A stretch of 64,000 bases of DNA from Methylocapsa sp. S129. GTDB lineage: Bacteria > Pseudomonadota > Alphaproteobacteria > Rhizobiales > Beijerinckiaceae. How positions within the stretch are numbered: position 1 is the stretch's first letter; each line of letters starts with the position of its first letter. The notes beneath the pieces are model-generated. The model had not been told where the DNA came from. It ran no database searches and saw nothing but the letters and a program-made list of their open reading frames with translations. Shown piece after piece: positions 54,155 to 64,000 of the stretch. The translations under genes were made by a program, and so were the position numbers. The DNA lies in the NCBI RefSeq assembly GCF_009765995.1, contig NZ_LMUI01000016.1, positions 186,001 to 250,000 of the forward strand, given 5' to 3'.

Positions 54155-54754
54155 TTACGGCTTGCTCCGTCCTTTGTCCTTGGCGGAAGCGCTTTTCGTC
54201 CGGTCGGGGACAACTACGACGAAAGCCCTGGCTGGATCGCCGTCCATTGCGACGCCGTGATGTTCGATATTGGCCTGGAAGTGGATGCAATCCCCTGGGC
54301 CGAGGATGATTTCGGCTCCTCCATATTCGAACTTCATCCGGCCTTCGAGCATCACGATGATCTCTTCGCCGGAATGTTTAAATTGCGGCGGCTCCTGCTC
54401 GTGACCAAGAACCGGCAGCGTCAAGAAAAACGCCTCGGCGCGTGGATTGAGCATGCGTCGCGAAGCCAATTCATAGGTGTAGCCGAGTTCGGTTCCATTC
54501 CGGTTGATTGGCGCGCGTTCGTCAGCCCGGACAATTGACAGCGATGTTCGCTCGCCCTGCGTTATGAAAATGTCGGAGACCCCGATCCCATAGACATCCG
54601 CGAGTCGACTGACGACTGCTATCGAGGGGACAGCGCTGCCGAGCTCGACCTTGGACAAATAGCCCTTTGTGACGTCAGCCCTTTTCGCCGCAAGGGAAAG
54701 CGTGAGGCCGGCTGTTTCGCGGAGCCGTCTGAGGGTTGCTCCCAGCTCAATCAT
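54155..54754 (-). CDS. XRE family regulator with C-terminal cupin domain
   Basis: A 199-residue transcription factor. The N-terminal HTH (residues 1-62) reads [20 protein letters not shown] with [20 protein letters not shown]. The C-terminal cupin sensor contains [20 protein letters not shown] and [13 protein letters not shown], giving metal- or ligand-binding histidines. Proteins of this layout control import and breakdown of small molecules and bind pathway metabolites. It faces away from the acyl-CoA ligase/ABC transporter/propeller operon across a 452-bp region with a strong dyad (54949-54966), so it is the likely regulator of that operon. Confidence 0.94.
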
Positions 54755-55206: not shown

Positions 55207-56760
55207 GTGAGCTTGATCAACGCAGCGGCTACTCAAGGACCTACGGTATGGTCCCTGTTCGCCGACGCGACACTGGTCCATCGCGACGCGTATGCCGTCG
55301 AGGACAAGCGCGTCCGCCTGACCTATCGCGCGTTCCGCGAGCGGGTCGAAAGGCTTGCAGGCGCGCTCCTCGCGCGGGGCGCTCGGCACGGCGACCGCGT
55401 CGCAATCCTTTCGGAGAACCGTTGCGAATATCTGGAAGTTCAATTGGCTTGCGCGAAGCTTGGCCTTATCGCCGCTTGCCCGAACTGGCGTCAGACCGGC
55501 GAGGAATTGGCGCGCTGCATCGCTCTCGTCTCGCCCATCCTGATCTTTGCGTCGCCGCGGTTCGAAGCCACGCTCGAAGATGTCGACCAAAGCACTCTAG
55601 ACAGACTCGTCTTTGAGGACAGTTATGAAAAGGCTCTTGCGGACGCCCCCGGCCTCTCCGACAGCCCCGTCGGTCTGGTGGCGCCGGAAGACGGATTGCT
55701 CATCCTCTATACGAGTGGGACGACCGGCTCCGCCAAGGGAGCGCTCATCAGTCATCGGGCCATGATCGCTCGCGCAATGACGATGATGGCCGACTGGTCC
55801 ATCGACGCCAGCAGGGGTTTCATCGCCTGGGCGCCCTTGTTCCACATGGCGTCAGCCGACCCTTCGCTTTCGACCCTGTGCCAGGGAGCCAAGGTCACCA
55901 TCATCGACGGCTTCGACGCCGAGGCGATCGCGGCGACCCTGGCGCGGGAGTCGGTCGGCTGGTTCGTCTTGATGCCGGGGATGATCGAGCGGATGTCCGA
56001 GGCGCTGCGGCGCCTGGGGACTGCGGCCAAAGGCGTCGCCGCCGCCGGCTGCATGGCGAACCTGATTCCCGGCCATCAGATTGCAGAGATCACGCGTCTG
56101 GTCGGGGCGCCTTTTCTTAATAGTTTCGGCTCGACCGAAACTGGAATTGCACCGGCCAGCCGGTCGAAGATTCCGATCGGCGTCGTCTTGCCGCCGCAGC
56201 CCAAGCTGCAAAGCTCCTTCTGCCAGATCCGGCTGGTGAACGATGAGGATGAAGAGGTGGCGGTCGGCGAAGTTGGCGAGATGAGCCTGCGCTCTCCAAC
56301 TTTGTTCAGCGGCTACTGGAATGCTCCGGAGGTTAATGCGCGCGAATTTCGCGGCGGTTGGTTCCACATGGGCGACGATTTCGTCCGCAACCCAGACGGC
56401 ACGCTCGATTTCGTCGATCGACGCAAATACCTCATAAAATCGGGCGGAGAGAACATCTATCCGGCGGAGATCGAGCGGATATTGCTTGCCTCGGACCGCG
56501 TCTCGGAAGCCGTTGTCGTCCGCAAGCGCGATGAGAAATGGGGCGAGATTCCGGTCCTGCTGATTGTGGCGCGCGATCCGACGCTCCGCGGCGCCGACGT
56601 CATGGACCTCCTGAACGGGCGGATCGCCCGCTTCAAGCTGCCCAAAGACGTCCTCTTTATCGCCGACGAGGAATTGTCGAGGAACGCCACCGGCAAAATC
56701 CGGCGCGATCTTCTTGAGCGACGAGTCGCCGACCGAGACTTCGGGGGGACAAAGCCGTGA
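55207..56760 (+). CDS. AMP-forming acyl-CoA ligase (class I adenylate-forming enzyme)
   Basis: Activates a carboxylic acid to its CoA thioester by way of an acyl-adenylate. Of about 517 residues from the GTG at 55207; a TTG at 55117 would add 30 residues. Motifs: A3 LLILYTSGTTGSAKGALISH, A5 FLNSFGSTETGIAP, A7 GGWFHMGDDFVRNPDG, A8 DRRKYLIKSGGENIYPAEIE and A10 RNATGKIRRDLLE with the catalytic lysine. It is the first large gene of the operon; the permease gene starts inside its stop codon (GTGA overlap). The substrate is likely the acid taken up or made by the transporter and propeller proteins. Acid identity is unknown. Confidence 0.95.
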   Translation: MSLINAAATQGPTVWSLFADATLVHRDAYAVEDKRVRLTYRAFRERVERLAGALLARGARHGDRVAILSENRCEYLEVQLACAKLGLIAACPNWRQTGEELARCIALVSPILIFASPRFEATLEDVDQSTLDRLVFEDSYEKALADAPGLSDSPVGLVAPEDGLLILYTSGTTGSAKGALISHRAMIARAMTMMADWSIDASRGFIAWAPLFHMASADPSLSTLCQGAKVTIIDGFDAEAIAATLARESVGWFVLMPGMIERMSEALRRLGTAAKGVAAAGCMANLIPGHQIAEITRLVGAPFLNSFGSTETGIAPASRSKIPIGVVLPPQPKLQSSFCQIRLVNDEDEEVAVGEVGEMSLRSPTLFSGYWNAPEVNAREFRGGWFHMGDDFVRNPDGTLDFVDRRKYLIKSGGENIYPAEIERILLASDRVSEAVVVRKRDEKWGEIPVLLIVARDPTLRGADVMDLLNGRIARFKLPKDVLFIADEELSRNATGKIRRDLLERRVADRDFGGTKP

Positions 56761-57758
56761 GTCTGTTCGCCGCCTCTGGGAAGCCGGCCTGGCGCTATGT
56801 CCAGCAGGAGAACATTGTGATCGCCATCACGGCGATCGTCTTTCTCGGCTTCTCCGTGACGTTGAATAATTTCCTCACGACCTCGAATGTATTGTCGCTG
56901 ATCCAGAACGTTGCGATTCTGGGCATCCTCGGTCTCGCTATGGCCCAGGCGATCATCGGCCGCGGCATCGATTTGTCGATCGTCGCCAATATGGCTGTTT
57001 CGGTTGCTGCGACCCTTCAATTGGCCAATGGCGGAATGCCGATCGCGCTCGCGATCGCCCTGGGGCTGGCGCTCGCTCTTGTCATCGGCCTGATCAACGG
57101 CATGCTGATCGCCTATGTCGAGATACCGGCAATCTTCGCAACGCTCGCTATGGGGACGGCGGCCTATGGCTTCGTTCGCGCTGCGTTGCTCAACGACAAC
57201 CTCATTTACTTGAAGGCTGGCGGGGACGGCTGGTTCAAATGGATTGGGAGCGGCCAGATCGTCGGCATCCCGAGCTCCGTCGTGCTTTTCGGGATCGTCG
57301 CGGCGCTGATGCATGTCTTCCTGCACCATTCGCTGCCCGGCCGTTTCATCTACGCCATGGGCGACAATCCGTTGGCGGCGCGCACGACCGGCGTGCCGGT
57401 CCGTCCGACGATCGTCCTGCAATATGTACTGTCCGCTGGCGTGGCGTTCCTCGCCGGCATTGTCATGGCGACCTCGGTCGACAGCATGGAGACGCGCATT
57501 GCGCGCTCGAACCTCGTTTACGACGTCATCCTGGTCGTAGTCATCGGCGGCATCGGACTTAGCGGCGGCAAGGGCAAGATTCGCAGCGTGCTTGTGGGCA
57601 CGCTGCTGATCGGGACGCTTCTAAACGGCATGACCATCATGGATGTCCAATACACGCTGCAAAGCATCATCAAGAGCCTCATTCTGCTCGTCGCGATCAT
57701 CGTGGATTCCCTCGTCAATCCGCGCGACGAACAGACATCTCAGCAAGGCGACATCTAG
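56757..57758 (+). CDS. Ribose/autoinducer-type ABC transporter permease (first of two)
   Basis: A 333-residue inner-membrane subunit of the RbsC/LsrC class with about nine or ten helices. Typical segments are IIGRGIDLSIVANMAVSVAA, GLINGMLIAYVEIPAIFATL and the late GKGKIRSVLVGTLLIGTLLN. It begins at a GTG overlapping the ligase stop (GTGA). A second, larger permease is encoded downstream (58961), so the pore is probably a heterodimer. Confidence 0.95.
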   Translation: MSLFAASGKPAWRYVQQENIVIAITAIVFLGFSVTLNNFLTTSNVLSLIQNVAILGILGLAMAQAIIGRGIDLSIVANMAVSVAATLQLANGGMPIALAIALGLALALVIGLINGMLIAYVEIPAIFATLAMGTAAYGFVRAALLNDNLIYLKAGGDGWFKWIGSGQIVGIPSSVVLFGIVAALMHVFLHHSLPGRFIYAMGDNPLAARTTGVPVRPTIVLQYVLSAGVAFLAGIVMATSVDSMETRIARSNLVYDVILVVVIGGIGLSGGKGKIRSVLVGTLLIGTLLNGMTIMDVQYTLQSIIKSLILLVAIIVDSLVNPRDEQTSQQGDI

Positions 57759-57851: not shown

Positions 57852-58886
57852 ATGAAATCGACATTGAAAAAGCTTGGATTCGCCTTGTTGCTCGCAGCGG
57901 CGACAGCAAGCTTCGCGTCGTTCGCGACGGCTGATGAGCCCGACGACGGCCTCGTCAAAGGCGCCAACGCCGCCTTGAAAGGCAAGAAGGTCGCCTTTGT
58001 TCCGATCGCGATGGGGTTCGATCTGACCGAAGCCTGGGCGGCGGGGCTGAAGCAGGATGCGGCGCTCTATGGTTACGAGCTCACGATCCGCGATCCAAAC
58101 TGGAGCGTTGACGCTGGCGCCCAGGCGATCACGCAGCTCATTGCCGAGAAACCCGACGTCCTCGTGATTCATCCGCCTGAAATCCAGGCCTATACGCGGC
58201 TCGTGCAGCGCGCCAATGCGGCGGGCATTCCAGTCGTGACCATGAACCTCAAATCAGGAGCCAACGGAGACGCCTTTATCGGCGCCGATTGGTACGACAT
58301 CGCCGTGAAGCAGACGAACGCCGTCGTCAAACTCTGCGGAAAGGACAGCGGAAAATCGGGCAAGATCGCGGTCATGCAGGGCGTGCTCACCAACCCCACA
58401 TCCCAATATGGCATCCAGGCCATCCAGGACGTGCTCAAAAACCATCCCGATGTGCAGATCGTCTCTAATCAGGCGGCGGACTGGGATGCGAGCAAAGCGC
58501 ACGCGATCGCAACGACCGTGCTGAAGGCGAACCCCGACCTCTGCGCCTTCATCGGCATGTGGGACAATATGGACGTCGGCGTCGCCGCGGCCATCAAGGA
58601 AGCGGGCAAGACCGGCCAAGTCTACGTCGTGAGTTCAGGCGGCGGAAACCAAGCTTCGGCCTGCGACAACATCGCCAGCGGCGCTTTCACCACTTACATC
58701 AGCTATGACGCCAAGGGGCAGGCGCGCGACCTGATGATGACGGTCAGGAGCCTCCTCGAGGTCAAACCTGAAAGCGCCGGCGTTCATACCGAAGCGCTCT
58801 ATACGCCGCTCAAAACGATAACCAAGGACACGCTCTACACCGGCGCGTGCTGGAGCCTCCCGGACGTTCAGAAATACGGGCCTTGA
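57852..58886 (+). CDS. Periplasmic sugar-type substrate-binding protein
   Basis: A 344-residue periplasmic-binding protein of the RbsB/LsrB class (Peripla_BP_4). The ATG at 57852 follows GGGAGGA. A signal peptide covers about residues 1-28 (LGFALLLAAATASFASFATA). The mature domain opens KGKKVAFVPIAMGFDLTEAW and has DPNWSVDAGAQAITQLIAEK, then PEIQAYTRLVQRANAAGIPV for the hinge. ADWDASKAHAIATTVLKANP and GAFTTYISYDAKGQARDLMM form the second lobe. Ligand unknown; sugars, autoinducers and other small polar compounds use this fold. The following permease gene starts 75 bp on. Confidence 0.95.
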   Translation: MKSTLKKLGFALLLAAATASFASFATADEPDDGLVKGANAALKGKKVAFVPIAMGFDLTEAWAAGLKQDAALYGYELTIRDPNWSVDAGAQAITQLIAEKPDVLVIHPPEIQAYTRLVQRANAAGIPVVTMNLKSGANGDAFIGADWYDIAVKQTNAVVKLCGKDSGKSGKIAVMQGVLTNPTSQYGIQAIQDVLKNHPDVQIVSNQAADWDASKAHAIATTVLKANPDLCAFIGMWDNMDVGVAAAIKEAGKTGQVYVVSSGGGNQASACDNIASGAFTTYISYDAKGQARDLMMTVRSLLEVKPESAGVHTEALYTPLKTITKDTLYTGACWSLPDVQKYGP

Positions 58887-58960: not shown

Positions 58961-61081
58961 ATGTTGTCCGAGTTCCTGACCCGCTGGCGATATCGCCTCG
59001 TTCCCGATCACGTCCTGGGCGAAATCCTGTCCAAGACGTGGATCGACAACGCGATACCGTTCGCGATCCTTCTGCTCACCCTCGCTGTTTTCGGGACATT
59101 GATTCCCGGGCTCGTAACGTTGACAGGCTTCGCCGCTCTCTATGCCGAGCTCGGGGAGCTCATCTTCGTTGTGCTTGGCATGTCGCTCGTGATGCTCGCG
59201 GGCGGCATCGATCTCAGTGTTGGTTCGGTCTTCGCGCTCGCCAATTTCCTCACGCTCTTGCTGTTCAACATGCTAGGATGGCCGATCCCCGTTGTCATCG
59301 CGCTCGCGCTGCTATGCGGCGGACTTGTCGGGCTCGTGAACGGCTTCCTCGTCGGCTATCTCCGGCTCAGGGCTTTTCTGACGACCCTTGTGACCTTGAT
59401 CATCGTTCGCTCGATCGTCGACATGCTGATTCTCGCCTATGCGGTGAAGGTCGCGAACCCCGTCGCCACGTCGCCAATCTGGGATTTCATCTCGTTTGAT
59501 ACGTTTCATGGGTTACCCGTCGCGCTCATTGTCGCGCTGGTCGTCGCGGCGGCAGCTCACCTTTTTCTTACCCGTCTGCGGCCGGGATGGCGCATCCTGG
59601 CTGTCGGCGGCTCGCGGCGCTCGGCTTACAATGCGGGTCTGCCGGTTCGCCGCACGATCGCGACGACCTACGTCATGAGCGGCGTTCTCGCGGCGGCGGG
59701 GGGCGTCTTTTATGCGGCGCGGCTCAACGCCGCCGGTTCGGACACCGGCGTCGGTCTTGAGGTGCTCGCGCTCACCGCGGCGGTGTTGGGCGGCAACAGC
59801 CTGGGCGGCGGGCGCGGCTCGGTCGCAAAGGCGCTGCTAGGCGCGATCACCGTGCTCATCGTTTCGAGCAGCCTCATCCGCTTGAGCCTCCCAACCGGCG
59901 CTACGTCTTTCGCCCTCGGCGTGGTCCTGCTCGCCGCTGTGGCGATCGATGTGCGATGGGTCAAGAATCGATCGAAGCTTCTCTCGCGCGTCTATGTTTC
60001 GCCCACCTATCTCAAGCTTCCTCCTGCGCCCTCGACCGAGGCGGGCTCGGCCTCTCTCTATGCGGTGAACGACCGGTTGCATGAGGTCGAGCTTATCGGC
60101 CTTGGAGAACTGGACGGGCCGGAGGACACGATCCTCGATGCTGCGGACCATCTCTATACCGGCAGCCGGCATGGCGACGTCGTGCGCTTCATTGCGCCGG
60201 ACTATCGCAGACAGGAAATATTCGCCCATATCGGCGGCCATCCGCTCGGCATGGCCTTCGACAGCGAGGGAAACCTCATTGTCTGCGTCGCTGGCATGGG
60301 GCTTTACAAGATCGCGCCTGACCGGGTCGTCAGCAAGTTGTCCGACCAAACCAACCGCAGCCTGCTGTCGGTGATCGACGATTCCAGGATGCGTCTTGCC
60401 GACGATCTCGATATCGCGCCGGACGGGCGGATTTTCTTCAGCGAAGCGACGATCCGCTTCGATATGTCCGAATGGATGGTCGATGCGCTGGAGGCGCGCG
60501 GCAACGGGCGGATCATCTGCTACGATCCGCGCGACCGGTCGTCCCGCACGGTGATTTCCAAACTCCTGTTCGCCAATGGAATCTGCATGGCGAATGATGG
60601 CGAATCCTTCTTCTTCGCCGAGACCTGGGGATGCCGGATCTCCCGTTACTGGTTCACCGGCGGCAAGGCCGGCCGCCGCGAGATTGTCATCGAAAATCTC
60701 CCAGGCTATCCCGACAACATCAATCGCGCGTCCGACGGCAATTACTGGCTGGCGCTGGTCGGCATGCGCACTCCGGCCTTCGATCTTGGACTCGCCATGC
60801 CGAATTTTCGACGGCGGATGGCGCAACGGATCGCATCCGACGAATGGCTCTTCCCGAACATGAATACCGGCTGCGTCGTGAAGTTCAACGAAGCCGGCGT
60901 GATTGTCGATTGCCTCTGGGACGGGCGCGGAATCAACCACCCCATGATCACGTCGATGCGCGAACATAAGGGTTATCTCTATCTCGGCGGCGTCTCCAAC
61001 AACAGGATCGGACGCTACAGGATTCCCGGCGCCGACCCCGACTGGACTGGCGTCGGGTCCTATTGGGGGGCCCGGACATGA
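58961..61081 (+). CDS. ABC permease fused to a strictosidine-synthase/SMP-30-like beta-propeller
   Basis: A 706-residue fusion. Residues 1 to about 330 are an RbsC-like permease (GMSLVMLAGGIDLSVGSVFA, LCGGLVGLVNGFLVGYLRLR, GGNSLGGGRGSVAKALLGAI). A linker (VSPTYLKLPPAPSTEAGS) leads to about 330 residues of a six-bladed propeller of the strictosidine-synthase/gluconolactonase type. It carries LDAADHLYTGSRHGDVVRF, GHPLGMAFDSEGNLIVC, FANGICMANDGESFFFAETW and LPGYPDNINRASDGNYWLAL. The RbsC fold ends inside the cell, so the propeller should be cytosolic. Calcium or metal ligands (Glu, Asn, Asp) are plausible but unverified. Overlaps the next propeller gene by ATGA. Confidence 0.93.
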   Translation: MLSEFLTRWRYRLVPDHVLGEILSKTWIDNAIPFAILLLTLAVFGTLIPGLVTLTGFAALYAELGELIFVVLGMSLVMLAGGIDLSVGSVFALANFLTLLLFNMLGWPIPVVIALALLCGGLVGLVNGFLVGYLRLRAFLTTLVTLIIVRSIVDMLILAYAVKVANPVATSPIWDFISFDTFHGLPVALIVALVVAAAAHLFLTRLRPGWRILAVGGSRRSAYNAGLPVRRTIATTYVMSGVLAAAGGVFYAARLNAAGSDTGVGLEVLALTAAVLGGNSLGGGRGSVAKALLGAITVLIVSSSLIRLSLPTGATSFALGVVLLAAVAIDVRWVKNRSKLLSRVYVSPTYLKLPPAPSTEAGSASLYAVNDRLHEVELIGLGELDGPEDTILDAADHLYTGSRHGDVVRFIAPDYRRQEIFAHIGGHPLGMAFDSEGNLIVCVAGMGLYKIAPDRVVSKLSDQTNRSLLSVIDDSRMRLADDLDIAPDGRIFFSEATIRFDMSEWMVDALEARGNGRIICYDPRDRSSRTVISKLLFANGICMANDGESFFFAETWGCRISRYWFTGGKAGRREIVIENLPGYPDNINRASDGNYWLALVGMRTPAFDLGLAMPNFRRRMAQRIASDEWLFPNMNTGCVVKFNEAGVIVDCLWDGRGINHPMITSMREHKGYLYLGGVSNNRIGRYRIPGADPDWTGVGSYWGART

Positions 61082-62181
61082 GTTCGCTTCTGTCCCGTCT
61101 CGCCGATCGGTGGCGCGGCAGCGGGGCTTACTCGCTCACAACCCCGCCGATGGATGGCGCGTTGCGGCCGAATCAGCTCATCGAGAGCGCCGATCTGGCC
61201 ACTGCCGCCGGGGCGCCGGACAACCTTGTTGTTCAAGGCGATCGCGTGTTGTTCACGAGCGGTCGGGCCATTCTCGCATTGGGCGATGCGTGCGGCTCGC
61301 CCGTTCCGGCCGGCGAAGCGCCCGCCGAGATTGCCTGTATGGCGGCCGCCGTCGATGGAAGTCTGGCGCTCGGCCTTGTCGATGGCCGGATCCTTTTGCG
61401 CGGCGGCGTCCATGATGGCCTTGAGCTGCGAACATGCGGAGACCGGCCGGTTCTCTGTCCGACCGCGCTGCTCTTCGAGGACACGGATACATTGCTCGTG
61501 TGCCTTGGCAGCCAGGACAATCGGCCAGATGCTTGGAAGGCCGACCTCATGGAGCGGCGCGCCACAGGCTCCATCTGGCGCGTTCATCTGGGACGGCGCG
61601 AGGCCAGTTGCCTCGCCGATGCGCTCGCCTTTCCTTATGGCGTCATGCGCGTCGGCAACGGCGACCTGGTGGTCAGCGAAAGCTGGCGCAGCCAGCTCGT
61701 CGCCATTGCGCCGAATGGAGGCTCGAGACCGGCGCTCCTGGATCTGCCGGGCTATCCCGCGCGCATCGTCGTGCGCCCGGATGGCGCGGGCGCCTGGATC
61801 GCCATCTTCGCTCCGCGCAGCCAATTGATCGAGTTCGTGCTCAGAGAGCGCCGCTATTGCGAGCGGATGATGCGCGAAATGCCGCCAGATCTTTGGGTGG
61901 CGCCGTCTCTGCACGCCCCCGAATCCTTCCTGGAGCCGCTCCAGGGGGGCGCCCTCAAACAACTCGGCATTCTCAAGCCGTGGGCGCCGACGCGCTCCTA
62001 TGGCCTCGTGGTCCAACTCGACGCAAACCTCCGGCCGGTATCGAGTTTCCACAGTCGCGCGGACGGTCGGCGGCATGGCGTCACGAGCTGCGTCGAAGTC
62101 GGCGGTCGCCTCATAGCCACAAGCAAGGGCGGTGACGCGATCGTCGCAATAGCGCTCCCTCCGTCAGGAGCCCAGACATGA
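61078..62181 (+). CDS. Free-standing strictosidine-synthase/SMP-30-like propeller protein
   Basis: A 367-residue soluble protein without signal peptide, in the same superfamily as the domain fused to the preceding permease. Recognisable blade motifs are GAPDNLVVQGDRVLFTSG, PTALLFEDTDTLLVCLGS, DALAFPYGVMRVGNGDLVVS and LPGYPARIVVRPDGAGAWIA, and it ends with EVGGRLIATSKGGDAIVAIA. It is more divergent than the fused domain. Translation is coupled on both sides (ATGA overlaps at 61078 and 62178). It probably works with the fused propeller on the imported compound; hydrolase and lactonase activities are known in the family, and strictosidine synthase itself makes a C-C bond. No substrate is inferred. 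Confidence 0.88.
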   Translation: MSSLLSRLADRWRGSGAYSLTTPPMDGALRPNQLIESADLATAAGAPDNLVVQGDRVLFTSGRAILALGDACGSPVPAGEAPAEIACMAAAVDGSLALGLVDGRILLRGGVHDGLELRTCGDRPVLCPTALLFEDTDTLLVCLGSQDNRPDAWKADLMERRATGSIWRVHLGRREASCLADALAFPYGVMRVGNGDLVVSESWRSQLVAIAPNGGSRPALLDLPGYPARIVVRPDGAGAWIAIFAPRSQLIEFVLRERRYCERMMREMPPDLWVAPSLHAPESFLEPLQGGALKQLGILKPWAPTRSYGLVVQLDANLRPVSSFHSRADGRRHGVTSCVEVGGRLIATSKGGDAIVAIALPPSGAQT

Positions 62182-63680
62182 CGCCAGCTCCCCTCGTTGA
62201 GATGCGGTCGGTGACCAAACGCTATGCGGGCGTCGCGGCGGTCGAGGATGTCGACTTCTCGGTGCGCGCGGGCGAAGTCCATGCTCTGCTCGGTGAAAAC
62301 GGCGCCGGCAAGTCGACGCTGACCAAAGTGCTCGCCGGCGTCACGGCGCCAACCAGCGGCGAAGTGCTTGTGGACGGGACGGCGGTTTCCTTTGCAACCC
62401 CCGCCGACGCGTTGGCGCGCGGCATCAACATGGTCTTTCAGGAGAACAGTCTTGTACCCTCGATGACCGTCGCGCAAAATCTCTTCCTCGGCGACGAGAA
62501 ATTTTTCAACCGCCTGCGCAACCTCTACATCGCCGCGCAGCAATTCCTGCAATCGCTCAACTTCAACGTCGACCCCTGGGCGACTGTCGCTTCGCTGGGC
62601 GTCGCCAAGAAGCAGATGGTCGAGATCGCCCGCGCAGTCCGCCACAACGCTCGCCTGATTGTTTTCGACGAACCGACGGCCTCGCTCACGCCGGAAGAGA
62701 AGCGCCACTTCTTTGCGCTGGTCCGCCGCCTGACGGCCAAAGGCGTCGCGATCGTCTTCATTTCGCATGCGCTCGAGGAGGCGCTGGAGATATCGGAACG
62801 GATCACCGTCCTGCGCGACGGTCGTCTGATAGCAACCGGGCCGACGCGAGAGTTCGACCGGAATCGAATCGTGAGCGCCATGGTCGGGCGTTCGCTTGTC
62901 AACGAGGGGCTGGACCCCCGGACCCGGCGAAGTGCGCGCGCGCCAGGGCGAAAGCTCCTGAGCGTGCAGAATCTTTCGATGGGCGATGCGGTCCGGAATA
63001 CCTCGTTCAGCGTTTATGCCGGACAGATTACGGGGCTGTTTGGCCTCATCGGCTCCGGGAGGACGGAAACCGCCAAGATCGTCGCCGGCATCGCCAAGCG
63101 CAACATCTTCTACGGCGGTGAAATTCGCCTGGAAGACAGGGCGGTGCGTTATCGAATCCCGCGACAAGCGGTGCGCGACGGCATCGTCTATGTGACGGAG
63201 GATCGGAAGGTCGAAGGATTCTTCGAGACGATGTCGATCGCTGAGAACATTGCGATCGGCGTCCTTTCGGCGCGAAAGAGACCGCCTTTGATTGTCTCGA
63301 TGGCCGACATGGCGGCGCTGGCGCAAGAATGGACGGCCAAGCTCTCCATCAAGGCGATCAGCGCGGAAGCGCGGGTCATTGAACTCTCAGGCGGCAACCA
63401 GCAAAAAGTCGTTATCGCCAAATCGCTGGCGCAGACGCCGGCGGTCGTCATCTTCGATGAGCCGACCCGGGGCGTTGACGTCGGCGCGATCGCCGAGATT
63501 CATCAGATGATCAACGGCCTCGCCGATCAAGGGCTCGGCGTCGTTGTGATCTCCTCCTACCTTCCAGAAATATTGTCGCTCTCCGATCGCATTCTTGTGT
63601 CGCAGAAGGGACGCATCGTCGAGGAGTTCACACCAGGAAACGTAACCGAGGAAGAAATCATGTTCGCAGCGGTACATTGA
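62178..63680 (+). CDS. Twin-ATPase subunit of sugar-type ABC importer (RbsA/MglA-like)
   Basis: A 500-residue protein with two nucleotide-binding domains that powers the importer. Domain 1 has Walker A LLGENGAGKSTLTKVLAG and Walker B RLIVFDEPTASLTPEE, with the signature SLGVAKKQMVEIARAV. Domain 2 has the degenerate Walker A FGLIGSGRTETAKIVAG usual for the second half, ELSGGNQQKVVIAKSLAQ and VVIFDEPTRGVDVGAIAE. It overlaps the propeller gene by 4 bp. With two permeases and one binding protein the transporter set is complete. Confidence 0.97.
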   Translation: MTPAPLVEMRSVTKRYAGVAAVEDVDFSVRAGEVHALLGENGAGKSTLTKVLAGVTAPTSGEVLVDGTAVSFATPADALARGINMVFQENSLVPSMTVAQNLFLGDEKFFNRLRNLYIAAQQFLQSLNFNVDPWATVASLGVAKKQMVEIARAVRHNARLIVFDEPTASLTPEEKRHFFALVRRLTAKGVAIVFISHALEEALEISERITVLRDGRLIATGPTREFDRNRIVSAMVGRSLVNEGLDPRTRRSARAPGRKLLSVQNLSMGDAVRNTSFSVYAGQITGLFGLIGSGRTETAKIVAGIAKRNIFYGGEIRLEDRAVRYRIPRQAVRDGIVYVTEDRKVEGFFETMSIAENIAIGVLSARKRPPLIVSMADMAALAQEWTAKLSIKAISAEARVIELSGGNQQKVVIAKSLAQTPAVVIFDEPTRGVDVGAIAEIHQMINGLADQGLGVVVISSYLPEILSLSDRILVSQKGRIVEEFTPGNVTEEEIMFAAVH

Positions 63681-63770: not shown

Positions 63771-64000
63771 ATGCGAAGAGCGACGGCCGCCGTGGTGGGA
63801 ATAGGGGAAGTGCCATCGGGGCGTTTCCCCGACCGATCTGAACTCGAAGCGGCGGTTTTGGCCTGCAAGGGCGCAATTCTGGATGCGGGCCTTGGTCCGC
63901 GCGACATTGACGTCGTCATGCCGACCGGCGCTCTGGCGTCGCGGCATTTCAACGTCGATCTGATATTCTCAAGGTTGTGCGAAGAGCTCGGCATGCTGCG
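63771..64000 (+). CDS. Thiolase-family protein (acetyl-CoA acetyltransferase-like), cut by window end
   Basis: Only the first 76 codons are present. The start MRRATAAVVGIGEVPSGRFP and the later CKGAILDAGLGPRDIDVVMP match the N-terminal beta-alpha segment of SCP-x/thiolase-like proteins. The catalytic cysteine would lie outside the window. A GAGGGAA box precedes the ATG at 63771. It follows the ATPase gene by 90 bp and may complete a pathway with the acyl-CoA ligase: thiolysis after CoA activation. Confidence 0.8.
   Translation, partial: MRRATAAVVGIGEVPSGRFPDRSELEAAVLACKGAILDAGLGPRDIDVVMPTGALASRHFNVDLIFSRLCEELGML

Follow-up and report, generated by a model that had tools for sequence, protein, structure and literature searches.

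Why should the permease of a sugar-type importer end in a domain that looks like an enzyme? This question is raised by a stretch of 64,000 nucleotides of Methylocapsa sp. S129 (contig NZ_LMUI01000016.1, positions 186,001 to 250,000), hereafter the window, where the gene at 58961..61081 (+ strand) encodes an RbsC-type (CUT2) permease (residues about 1-343) joined to a six-bladed Str_synth/SMP-30-like β-propeller (about 365-706). As described below, the fusion belongs to a conserved gene cassette, and we consider it fairly probable that this cassette encodes a CUT2 (RbsABC-like) ATP-binding cassette (ABC) importer, one permease subunit of which carries a calcium-dependent hydrolase of the paraoxonase/SMP-30 type on its cytosolic C-terminus.

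The fusion is genuine. Positions 58961-61081 form an uninterrupted single frame of 706 aa. The genome has another full-length fusion at G000:C40:14789-16891, which matches the first at 57% over residues 2-704 and contains no stop, and two further families of the order have copies with an end-to-end identity of 63-64%. Because of the full-length paralogue and the whole-length copies in other families, a sequencing error can be dismissed. An earlier sequence-only reading of the window had claimed the fusion, and also a second, free propeller gene and an ATPase gene joined to it by ATGA overlaps. All of these are present: the second propeller, here called PROP2, is encoded at 61078..62181 (+) and a tandem RbsA-type ATPase at 62178..63680 (+; ABC_tran in two stretches, 180 bits), with the ATGA overlaps at 61078-61081 (fusion/PROP2) and 62178-62181 (PROP2/ATPase). 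The same reading had proposed a domain search and a structure prediction of the fusion, and these gave the Pfam families BPD_transp_2 (residues 67-326, 117 bits), SSL_N (367-410), Str_synth (481-566, 71.8 bits) and SGL (425-601), and a six-bladed propeller. BPD_transp_2, the cut-off of which is 26.8 bits, was likewise found in an unfused RbsC-type permease (56757..57758, +; 103 bits), and the operon also holds a periplasmic binding protein (57852..58886, +; Peripla_BP_4, 160 bits), so that by Pfam the tandem ATPase and the binding protein of a CUT2 system are both there.

The fusion is also widespread. Using the propeller alignment, one genome per species was scanned for 84,980 species, which gave 404 stretches, and 381 of them were confirmed as relatives; the best 80 of these 381, kept as 79 loci, form the locus set used here (the best-scoring fifth). 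Nearly all of the 79 loci are labelled Alpha-, Beta- or Gammaproteobacteria, and one is labelled as a metagenome-assembled genome (MAG) of Mycobacteriaceae. The latter (L096) has its fusion cassette on a contig with that label, through either gene transfer or a binning error. In 77 of the 79 loci, the frame extends for at least 343 codons ahead of the propeller match, and the two exceptions (L078 and L096) are near a contig start. In a phylum sample, all 18 matches of at least 544 bits belong to open frames no shorter than 707 aa, and the 25 matches of at most 294 bits lie in frames of 354-438 aa, save two of 620 and 627. In an order sample, 60 of the 61 matches of at least 495 bits are in frames of at least 707 aa by hand count (one with an inner TGA), and the exception (G766) is a partial match in a frame of 338. 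With high-scoring matches in long frames and low-scoring ones in short frames, the fused propeller can be regarded as a distinct clade, and no clear unfused member of it was found in the phylum and order samples. Within the order, a hand count of matches scoring 495 bits or higher gave the fusion in 51 of the 397 genomes sampled; in the own genome and 40 relatives (41 in all), matches at E<=1e-60 were found in 8 genomes, belonging to 3 of 31 genera. The window's genome itself gave 76 matches to the fusion, mostly to the permease part, which reflects a large repertoire of RbsC-type importers.

The surrounding cassette is conserved as well. In 68 of 84 called fusions, the genes run completely from permease through binding protein, fusion and PROP2 to ATPase, and 11 of the remaining 16 are cut by contig or locus ends. 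Of the other five, L044 has two binding-protein genes in the cassette, PROP2 of L032 and L101 was overlooked by the gene caller and recovered by tblastn, the second cassette of L089 contains an N run, and in the second cassette of L087 the locus ends before PROP2 can be called. The fusion and PROP2 genes overlap by 4 nt in 57 of 77 called pairs, which is a lower bound since the choice of starts is imperfect: genes were called with a codon model that misplaces some starts (PROP2 of the window was put at 61150) and misses most genes of L078 and L102, which tblastn recovers. The architecture and its conservation are solid. An apparent permease-propeller-PROP2 triple fusion of 1046 aa in L089, which would suggest that the two propellers touch, was rejected as its junction consists of unknown bases (an X run); this artefact row was left out, so that fused rows number 83 and not 84. 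One MAG labelled Dongia (L063) carries three consecutive fusion cassettes, the first cut by the locus start and followed by a gene for the lyase of 3-hydroxy-3-methylglutaryl-coenzyme A (HMG-CoA).

What kind of propeller does the permease carry? Strictosidine synthase, TGW6, DFPase, the lactonase RPA3624, Drp35 and SMP30 were matched in both of two structure comparisons and PON1 in one; these comparisons concern the propeller only, and all matches returned were propellers. By sequence, the closest solved relative is TGW6, a hydrolase of indole-3-acetic acid (IAA)-glucose, and the permease part had no PDB sequence match at E 0.01. Rice TGW6 was placed against the fusion by profile alignment, with the numbering offset set by the residues named in the TGW6 paper, and PON1 was placed by motif. 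Five putative calcium ligands could be located in this way, all on the + strand: E388 (60122..60124; TGW6 E59, PON1 E53), D481 (60401..60403; TGW6 N167, PON1 N168), N539 (60575..60577; TGW6 N226, PON1 N224) and the pair D585-N586 (60713..60718; PON1 D269-N270, with N586 at TGW6 N272). E388, D481, N539 and N586 are each kept in 83/83 fused rows and D585 in 81/83; in the joint alignment with PROP2, all five are kept together in 81/83. According to the TGW6 study, E59, N167, N226 and N272 are named calcium-chelating positions, and calcium-binding relatives have at least two acidic ligands (PMC10958001); the putative site of the fusion has three such residues, E388, D481 and D585. The Ca1 ligands of PON1 are given in a review of this enzyme as N224, N270, N168, D269 and E53 (PMC7766523), and by our reading of the motifs the fusion residues would correspond to them. 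Since the ligand residues are kept and the acidic count agrees, the fused propeller likely has a live, calcium-dependent hydrolase site. Three fusions (L023, L052 and L094) have a partly lost metal site and are possible binding-only members.

The second propeller has the same fold and a different fate. Its Pfam match is below threshold (Str_synth, 16.1 bits; cut-off 25), and its AlphaFold2 (AF2) model is a propeller (pLDDT 90.8, predicted TM-score (pTM) 0.89) with strictosidine synthase and TGW6 as the best Foldseek matches, and hhalign joins it to the fused propeller at 99.9% probability over 313 columns. None of 77 PROP2 homologues keeps all five metal-site residues; 63 keep none and 14 keep one. 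Instead, position 388 is D (68/77), 481 is T (67/77), 586 is R (70/77) and 661 is H (76/77). Invariant residues of its own include N32, S145, W153, D156, R247, E257, K300, W302, S307, S326, R327 and H333 in a 40-row alignment, which suggests that PROP2 is under selection for something else. The sequence-only reading had described PROP2 as a second propeller of this kind and had stated that a lack of conserved metal or catalytic residues in both propellers would speak against enzyme activity; the shared fold stands and so does the metal site of the fused propeller, but a second enzyme of that type is not supported. PROP2 is most likely a pseudoenzyme, which would either form a pair with the fused propeller or pass on substrate or product.

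On which side of the membrane do the propellers lie? RbsC-type permeases have about ten transmembrane (TM) helices with cytosolic N- and C-termini. For the fusion, hydropathy, the AF2 helices and positive-inside counts agree on about ten TM helices with both termini inside, the limits of the ten segments having been chosen manually on the basis of the AF2 helices and the hydropathy of the family. With these limits, the mean number of lysines and arginines in the loops alternating inside is 4.4, 0, 1.9, 4.6, 1.0 and 3.9 (sum 15.8), and that in the outside loops is 0, 0, 0.3, 0 and 0.1 (sum 0.4). The last of the inside values belongs to the positively charged stretch that follows the final TM helix (residues 333-348; 59957..60004, +), which by this count would be cytosolic. 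PROP2 has no strongly hydrophobic N-terminal stretch in 75/77 homologues. From the loop charges of the fusion and the N-terminus of PROP2, both propellers can be read as cytosolic; for the fused one this predicted placement is supported by charge, in line with the cytosolic position proposed before.

The neighbouring genes give an indication of what may be imported. In slices of about 16 kb, 57 of the 79 fusion loci had enough flank for counting, and 20 regions with other CUT2 permeases, taken from more than 70 matches in the window's genome, served as a control. Any of the sought genes of CoA-thioester metabolism was found in 30/57 fusion loci versus 1/20 control loci (Fisher 1.3e-4, a value that ignores shared ancestry and is based on one control genome and on queries drawn from the fusion loci themselves). 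AMP-binding acyl-CoA ligases (23/57 versus 0/20) and enoyl-CoA hydratases (ECH; 24/57 versus 0/20) were both more frequent near the fusion, and CoA-transferases were not enriched (5/57 versus 1/20). The proposed link to CoA activation is thereby upheld. The idea that ligase and thiolase might always occur together is not, as a thiolase of the window's kind is near only 2/57 fusion loci. The type with thiolase and DUF35 forms one clade (6/83 rows, 100*), the window's own, with ligase, thiolase, DUF35 and short-chain dehydrogenase/reductase (SDR). Neighbour types track the fusion tree (23 label changes, where shuffled labels gave 50.8 on average), which would fit a difference in substrate between clades, although near-copies add to this agreement and the tree was built quickly and contains several long branches; for the label LIG_up no clustering was seen (6 changes, with 500/500 shuffles as low). 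Taken together, the neighbourhoods point to acids, lactones or esters as the imported ligands. In Pantoea sp. At-9b, the neighbours include dihydroxyacetone kinase, a triose-phosphate-isomerase-like gene and a phosphogluconate-dehydrogenase-like gene, which makes a sugar acid a candidate substrate in that organism. Directly 3' of the ATPase gene, three loci (L083:13667-16339, L119 and L120) encode an acyl-CoA ligase fused to an enoyl-CoA hydratase (about 870-890 aa in all); in some relatives, L082 and L095 among them, a ligase (about 620 aa) and a hydratase are encoded separately at the same position, with an AraC regulator upstream.

One subgroup of cassettes offers a more definite candidate substrate. 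HMG-CoA reductase (HMGR) is encoded in five called loci (L009 of the window's genome, L036, L043, L046 of Metarhizobium album, and L085), which lie at three places in the tree. By the degradative model TIGR00532 (cut-off 260 bits), the reductases of L046 and of the own genome score 436 and 445 bits, and the HMG-CoA lyase (HMGL) of L046 passes its model; the other HMGR and HMGL assignments were made by BLAST only. In L115, the genes follow in the order HMGR, permease, binding protein, fusion, PROP2, ATPase and HMGL; 4 nt separate HMGR from the next gene, and HMGL overlaps the gene before it by a single base. L117 repeats this order from HMGR to HMGL and is cut at both ends, and in L116 HMGR and the permease are separated by a CoA-transferase and an ECH gene. 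In a survey of the 397 genomes of the order, HMGR (E<=1e-20) was found in 38, of which 4 also carry the fusion, and in 4/4 of these fewer than 5 kb separate the two genes; in one of the four (G615), the reductase is divided between contig ends into pieces that each fall short of the cut-off. The use of HMGR to mark the fusion in general was tried and rejected, given co-occurrence not beyond chance (4/38), and only the physical linkage stands out. HMGR acts on free mevalonate, and for this reason a lactonase borne by the importer would point to mevalonolactone, which is the leading candidate substrate of the HMGR/HMGL subgroup. Mevalonate uptake as such is not new, since import systems for it are already stated to exist in several bacterial species (PMC12405511). 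The second cassette of the window's genome (G000:C40, L009:3279-15373) adjoins the degradative HMGR, an HMG-CoA lyase, a MocR-like-clustering gene and a Leu/Ile/Val-type binding protein.

We propose the following route for the importer with a fused hydrolase. The binding protein would deliver a hydroxy acid in the form of a small lactone or ester, which the permease:fusion pair would import together with the tandem ATPase. At the inner mouth, the fused propeller would open the lactone or ester to the free acid, which would be trapped as an anion and may then enter CoA-thioester metabolism through an acyl-CoA ligase, a CoA-transferase or, for mevalonate, directly through degradative HMGR. PROP2, the strictly linked cytosolic partner with a lost metal site, would pair with the fused propeller or hand over substrate or product. 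Calcium binding, hydrolysis, channelling and the role of PROP2 are all predicted steps, as is the coupling of transport to hydrolysis; in the window's clade, the substrate may be an acid in lactone or ester form that ligase, SDR and thiolase/DUF35 would degrade. A bolder version is more tentative: such hydrolase-coupled importers could be widespread, combining uptake and lactone ring-opening in one complex that releases its cargo only as trapped acid, with the dead sister propeller as a gate or hand-over subunit and with one subgroup being a dedicated mevalonolactone operon.

Several observations weigh against a calcium-dependent hydrolase on an importer. D585 is replaced in two Acidisoma fusions, and both N539 and D585 are lost in a fusion outside the 83-row set (L023, G005:C8). 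TGW6 itself is reported to show no calcium (PMC10958001). Two plant strictosidine synthase alignments have no equivalents of N539 and D585, so that they share the fold and not the full site. The site comparison covers the calcium ligands of TGW6 and PON1. The placement of the propeller relative to the pore is unsure because the AF2 model of the fusion has a pTM of 0.53, and the conservation figures concern the nearer relatives, as the 79 loci are the best-scoring of 381. As for the substrate, 27/57 fusion loci have none of the sought CoA genes nearby, SDR genes are not enriched (23/57 versus 6/20 control loci), and the co-occurrence of HMGR and the fusion by genome is that of chance (4 observed versus about 4.9 expected, given 51/397 fusion genomes); the limits stated with the Fisher test belong here as well.

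The alternatives differ mainly in what the propeller would do at this place. Regulatory C-terminal domains gate some other ABC importers, and the fused propeller could likewise be a sensor that binds the imported substrate or acid and gates the transporter by trans-inhibition. Its tether to the permease on the predicted ATPase side, the rigid cassette order and the linked PROP2, which has no metal site just as expected for a binding-only protein, would all suit such a role; however, a sensor has no need to keep a full hydrolase metal site in 81/83 rows across several proteobacterial classes, and we consider it unlikely. Given that TGW6, the closest solved sequence relative, is an IAA-glucose hydrolase and that the family includes strictosidine synthase, the propeller might instead be an enzyme other than a lactonase, for example an isomerase, an enzyme cleaving sugar-acyl esters or one catalyzing a strictosidine-synthase-like condensation. 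This is quite improbable in our view, as the plant strictosidine synthases (two alignments) are without the equivalents of N539 and D585 that the fusion keeps, and an ester hydrolase would anyway come near to the hydrolase proposed here. Propellers often mediate protein contacts, and PROP2 has conserved positions of its own, both of which would agree with mere scaffolds that bring the downstream CoA enzymes to the transporter and have no part in catalysis or sensing. The neighbouring enzymes vary between clades, whereas the propeller site is constant, and such scaffolds are very improbable.

Compared with known systems, the importer with a putative fused hydrolase has features of several. It shares BPD_transp_2 permeases, a Peripla_BP_4 binding protein and a tandem ATPase with the CUT2/RbsABC-type sugar importers, but it has a C-terminal propeller on one permease and an embedded second propeller gene, and the fusion reaches no curated NCBIfam cut-off. 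With the SMP-30/paraoxonase/strictosidine-synthase-like propellers (TGW6, RPA3624, DFPase and PON1), the fused domain has the fold and calcium-site residues in common, but it belongs to a transporter subunit and is accompanied by PROP2, which has no such site. Plant strictosidine synthase proper works with a catalytic glutamate, Glu309. Peptidase-containing ABC transporters are exporters with a cytosolic C39 peptidase that processes the cargo. They likewise have a cytosolic hydrolase fused to an ABC transporter, but here an importer and a propeller are concerned, and the likeness is one of analogy only; at E 1, neither the fusion nor the ATPase had a Pfam match to a C39 peptidase. Mevalonate catabolism of the Pseudomonas mevalonii type uses degradative HMGR and HMG-CoA lyase, and one cassette subgroup lies among such genes, but 34 of the 38 HMGR genomes are without the fusion. 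Among the matches listed in open-licence papers, no published description of such a fusion was found by title or abstract, which is consistent with the earlier statement that no transporter of this design had been characterised. Where the 16 matched plasmid records give the fusion a name, it is 'SMP-30/gluconolactonase/LRE family protein', 'ABC transporter permease' or else 'Ribose transport system permease protein RbsC', and PROP2 is a 'hypothetical protein' in all three records in which it was looked up. The fusion is present in more than an eighth of the order's sampled genomes, yet these annotations name just an SMP-30-family protein or a permease. If the proposed hydrolase is real, import and the first catabolic step would be physically coupled in an ABC importer, a mirror image of the peptidase-carrying exporters. 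The pairing of a live with a dead propeller raises a clear question about structure, and the HMGR/HMGL subgroup gives a directly testable substrate.

The remaining genes of the window operon complete the picture. An AMP-binding acyl-CoA ligase (55207..56760, +; Pfam AMP-binding, 205 bits, and AMP-binding_C) stands at its head; its open frame runs from 55117, and the start at 55207 is the uncertain choice of the gene caller. Divergent from the operon is a helix-turn-helix (HTH)-cupin regulator (54155..54754, - strand; HTH_31 and Cupin_2), a homologue of which occupies the equivalent position in 5 relatives of the window's clade. Downstream of the ATPase, a thiolase gene (63771..64000, +; Thiolase_C_1, 167 bits in L011) runs past the window end and is followed in L011 by genes for a DUF35 protein (ChsH2-like; OB_ChsH2_C, 73 bits) and an SDR (adh_short_C2, 165 bits). 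A permease-ATPase fusion, an ordinary design, also occurs in the window's genome (L134:6355-8910, about 850 aa; frame C6:250405, 852 aa), among several frames of more than 800 aa. Further 3' of the window operon (L011:6075-17714), more CUT2 genes (a binding protein, two permeases and an ATPase) are followed by an enolase-superfamily enzyme and another ATPase.

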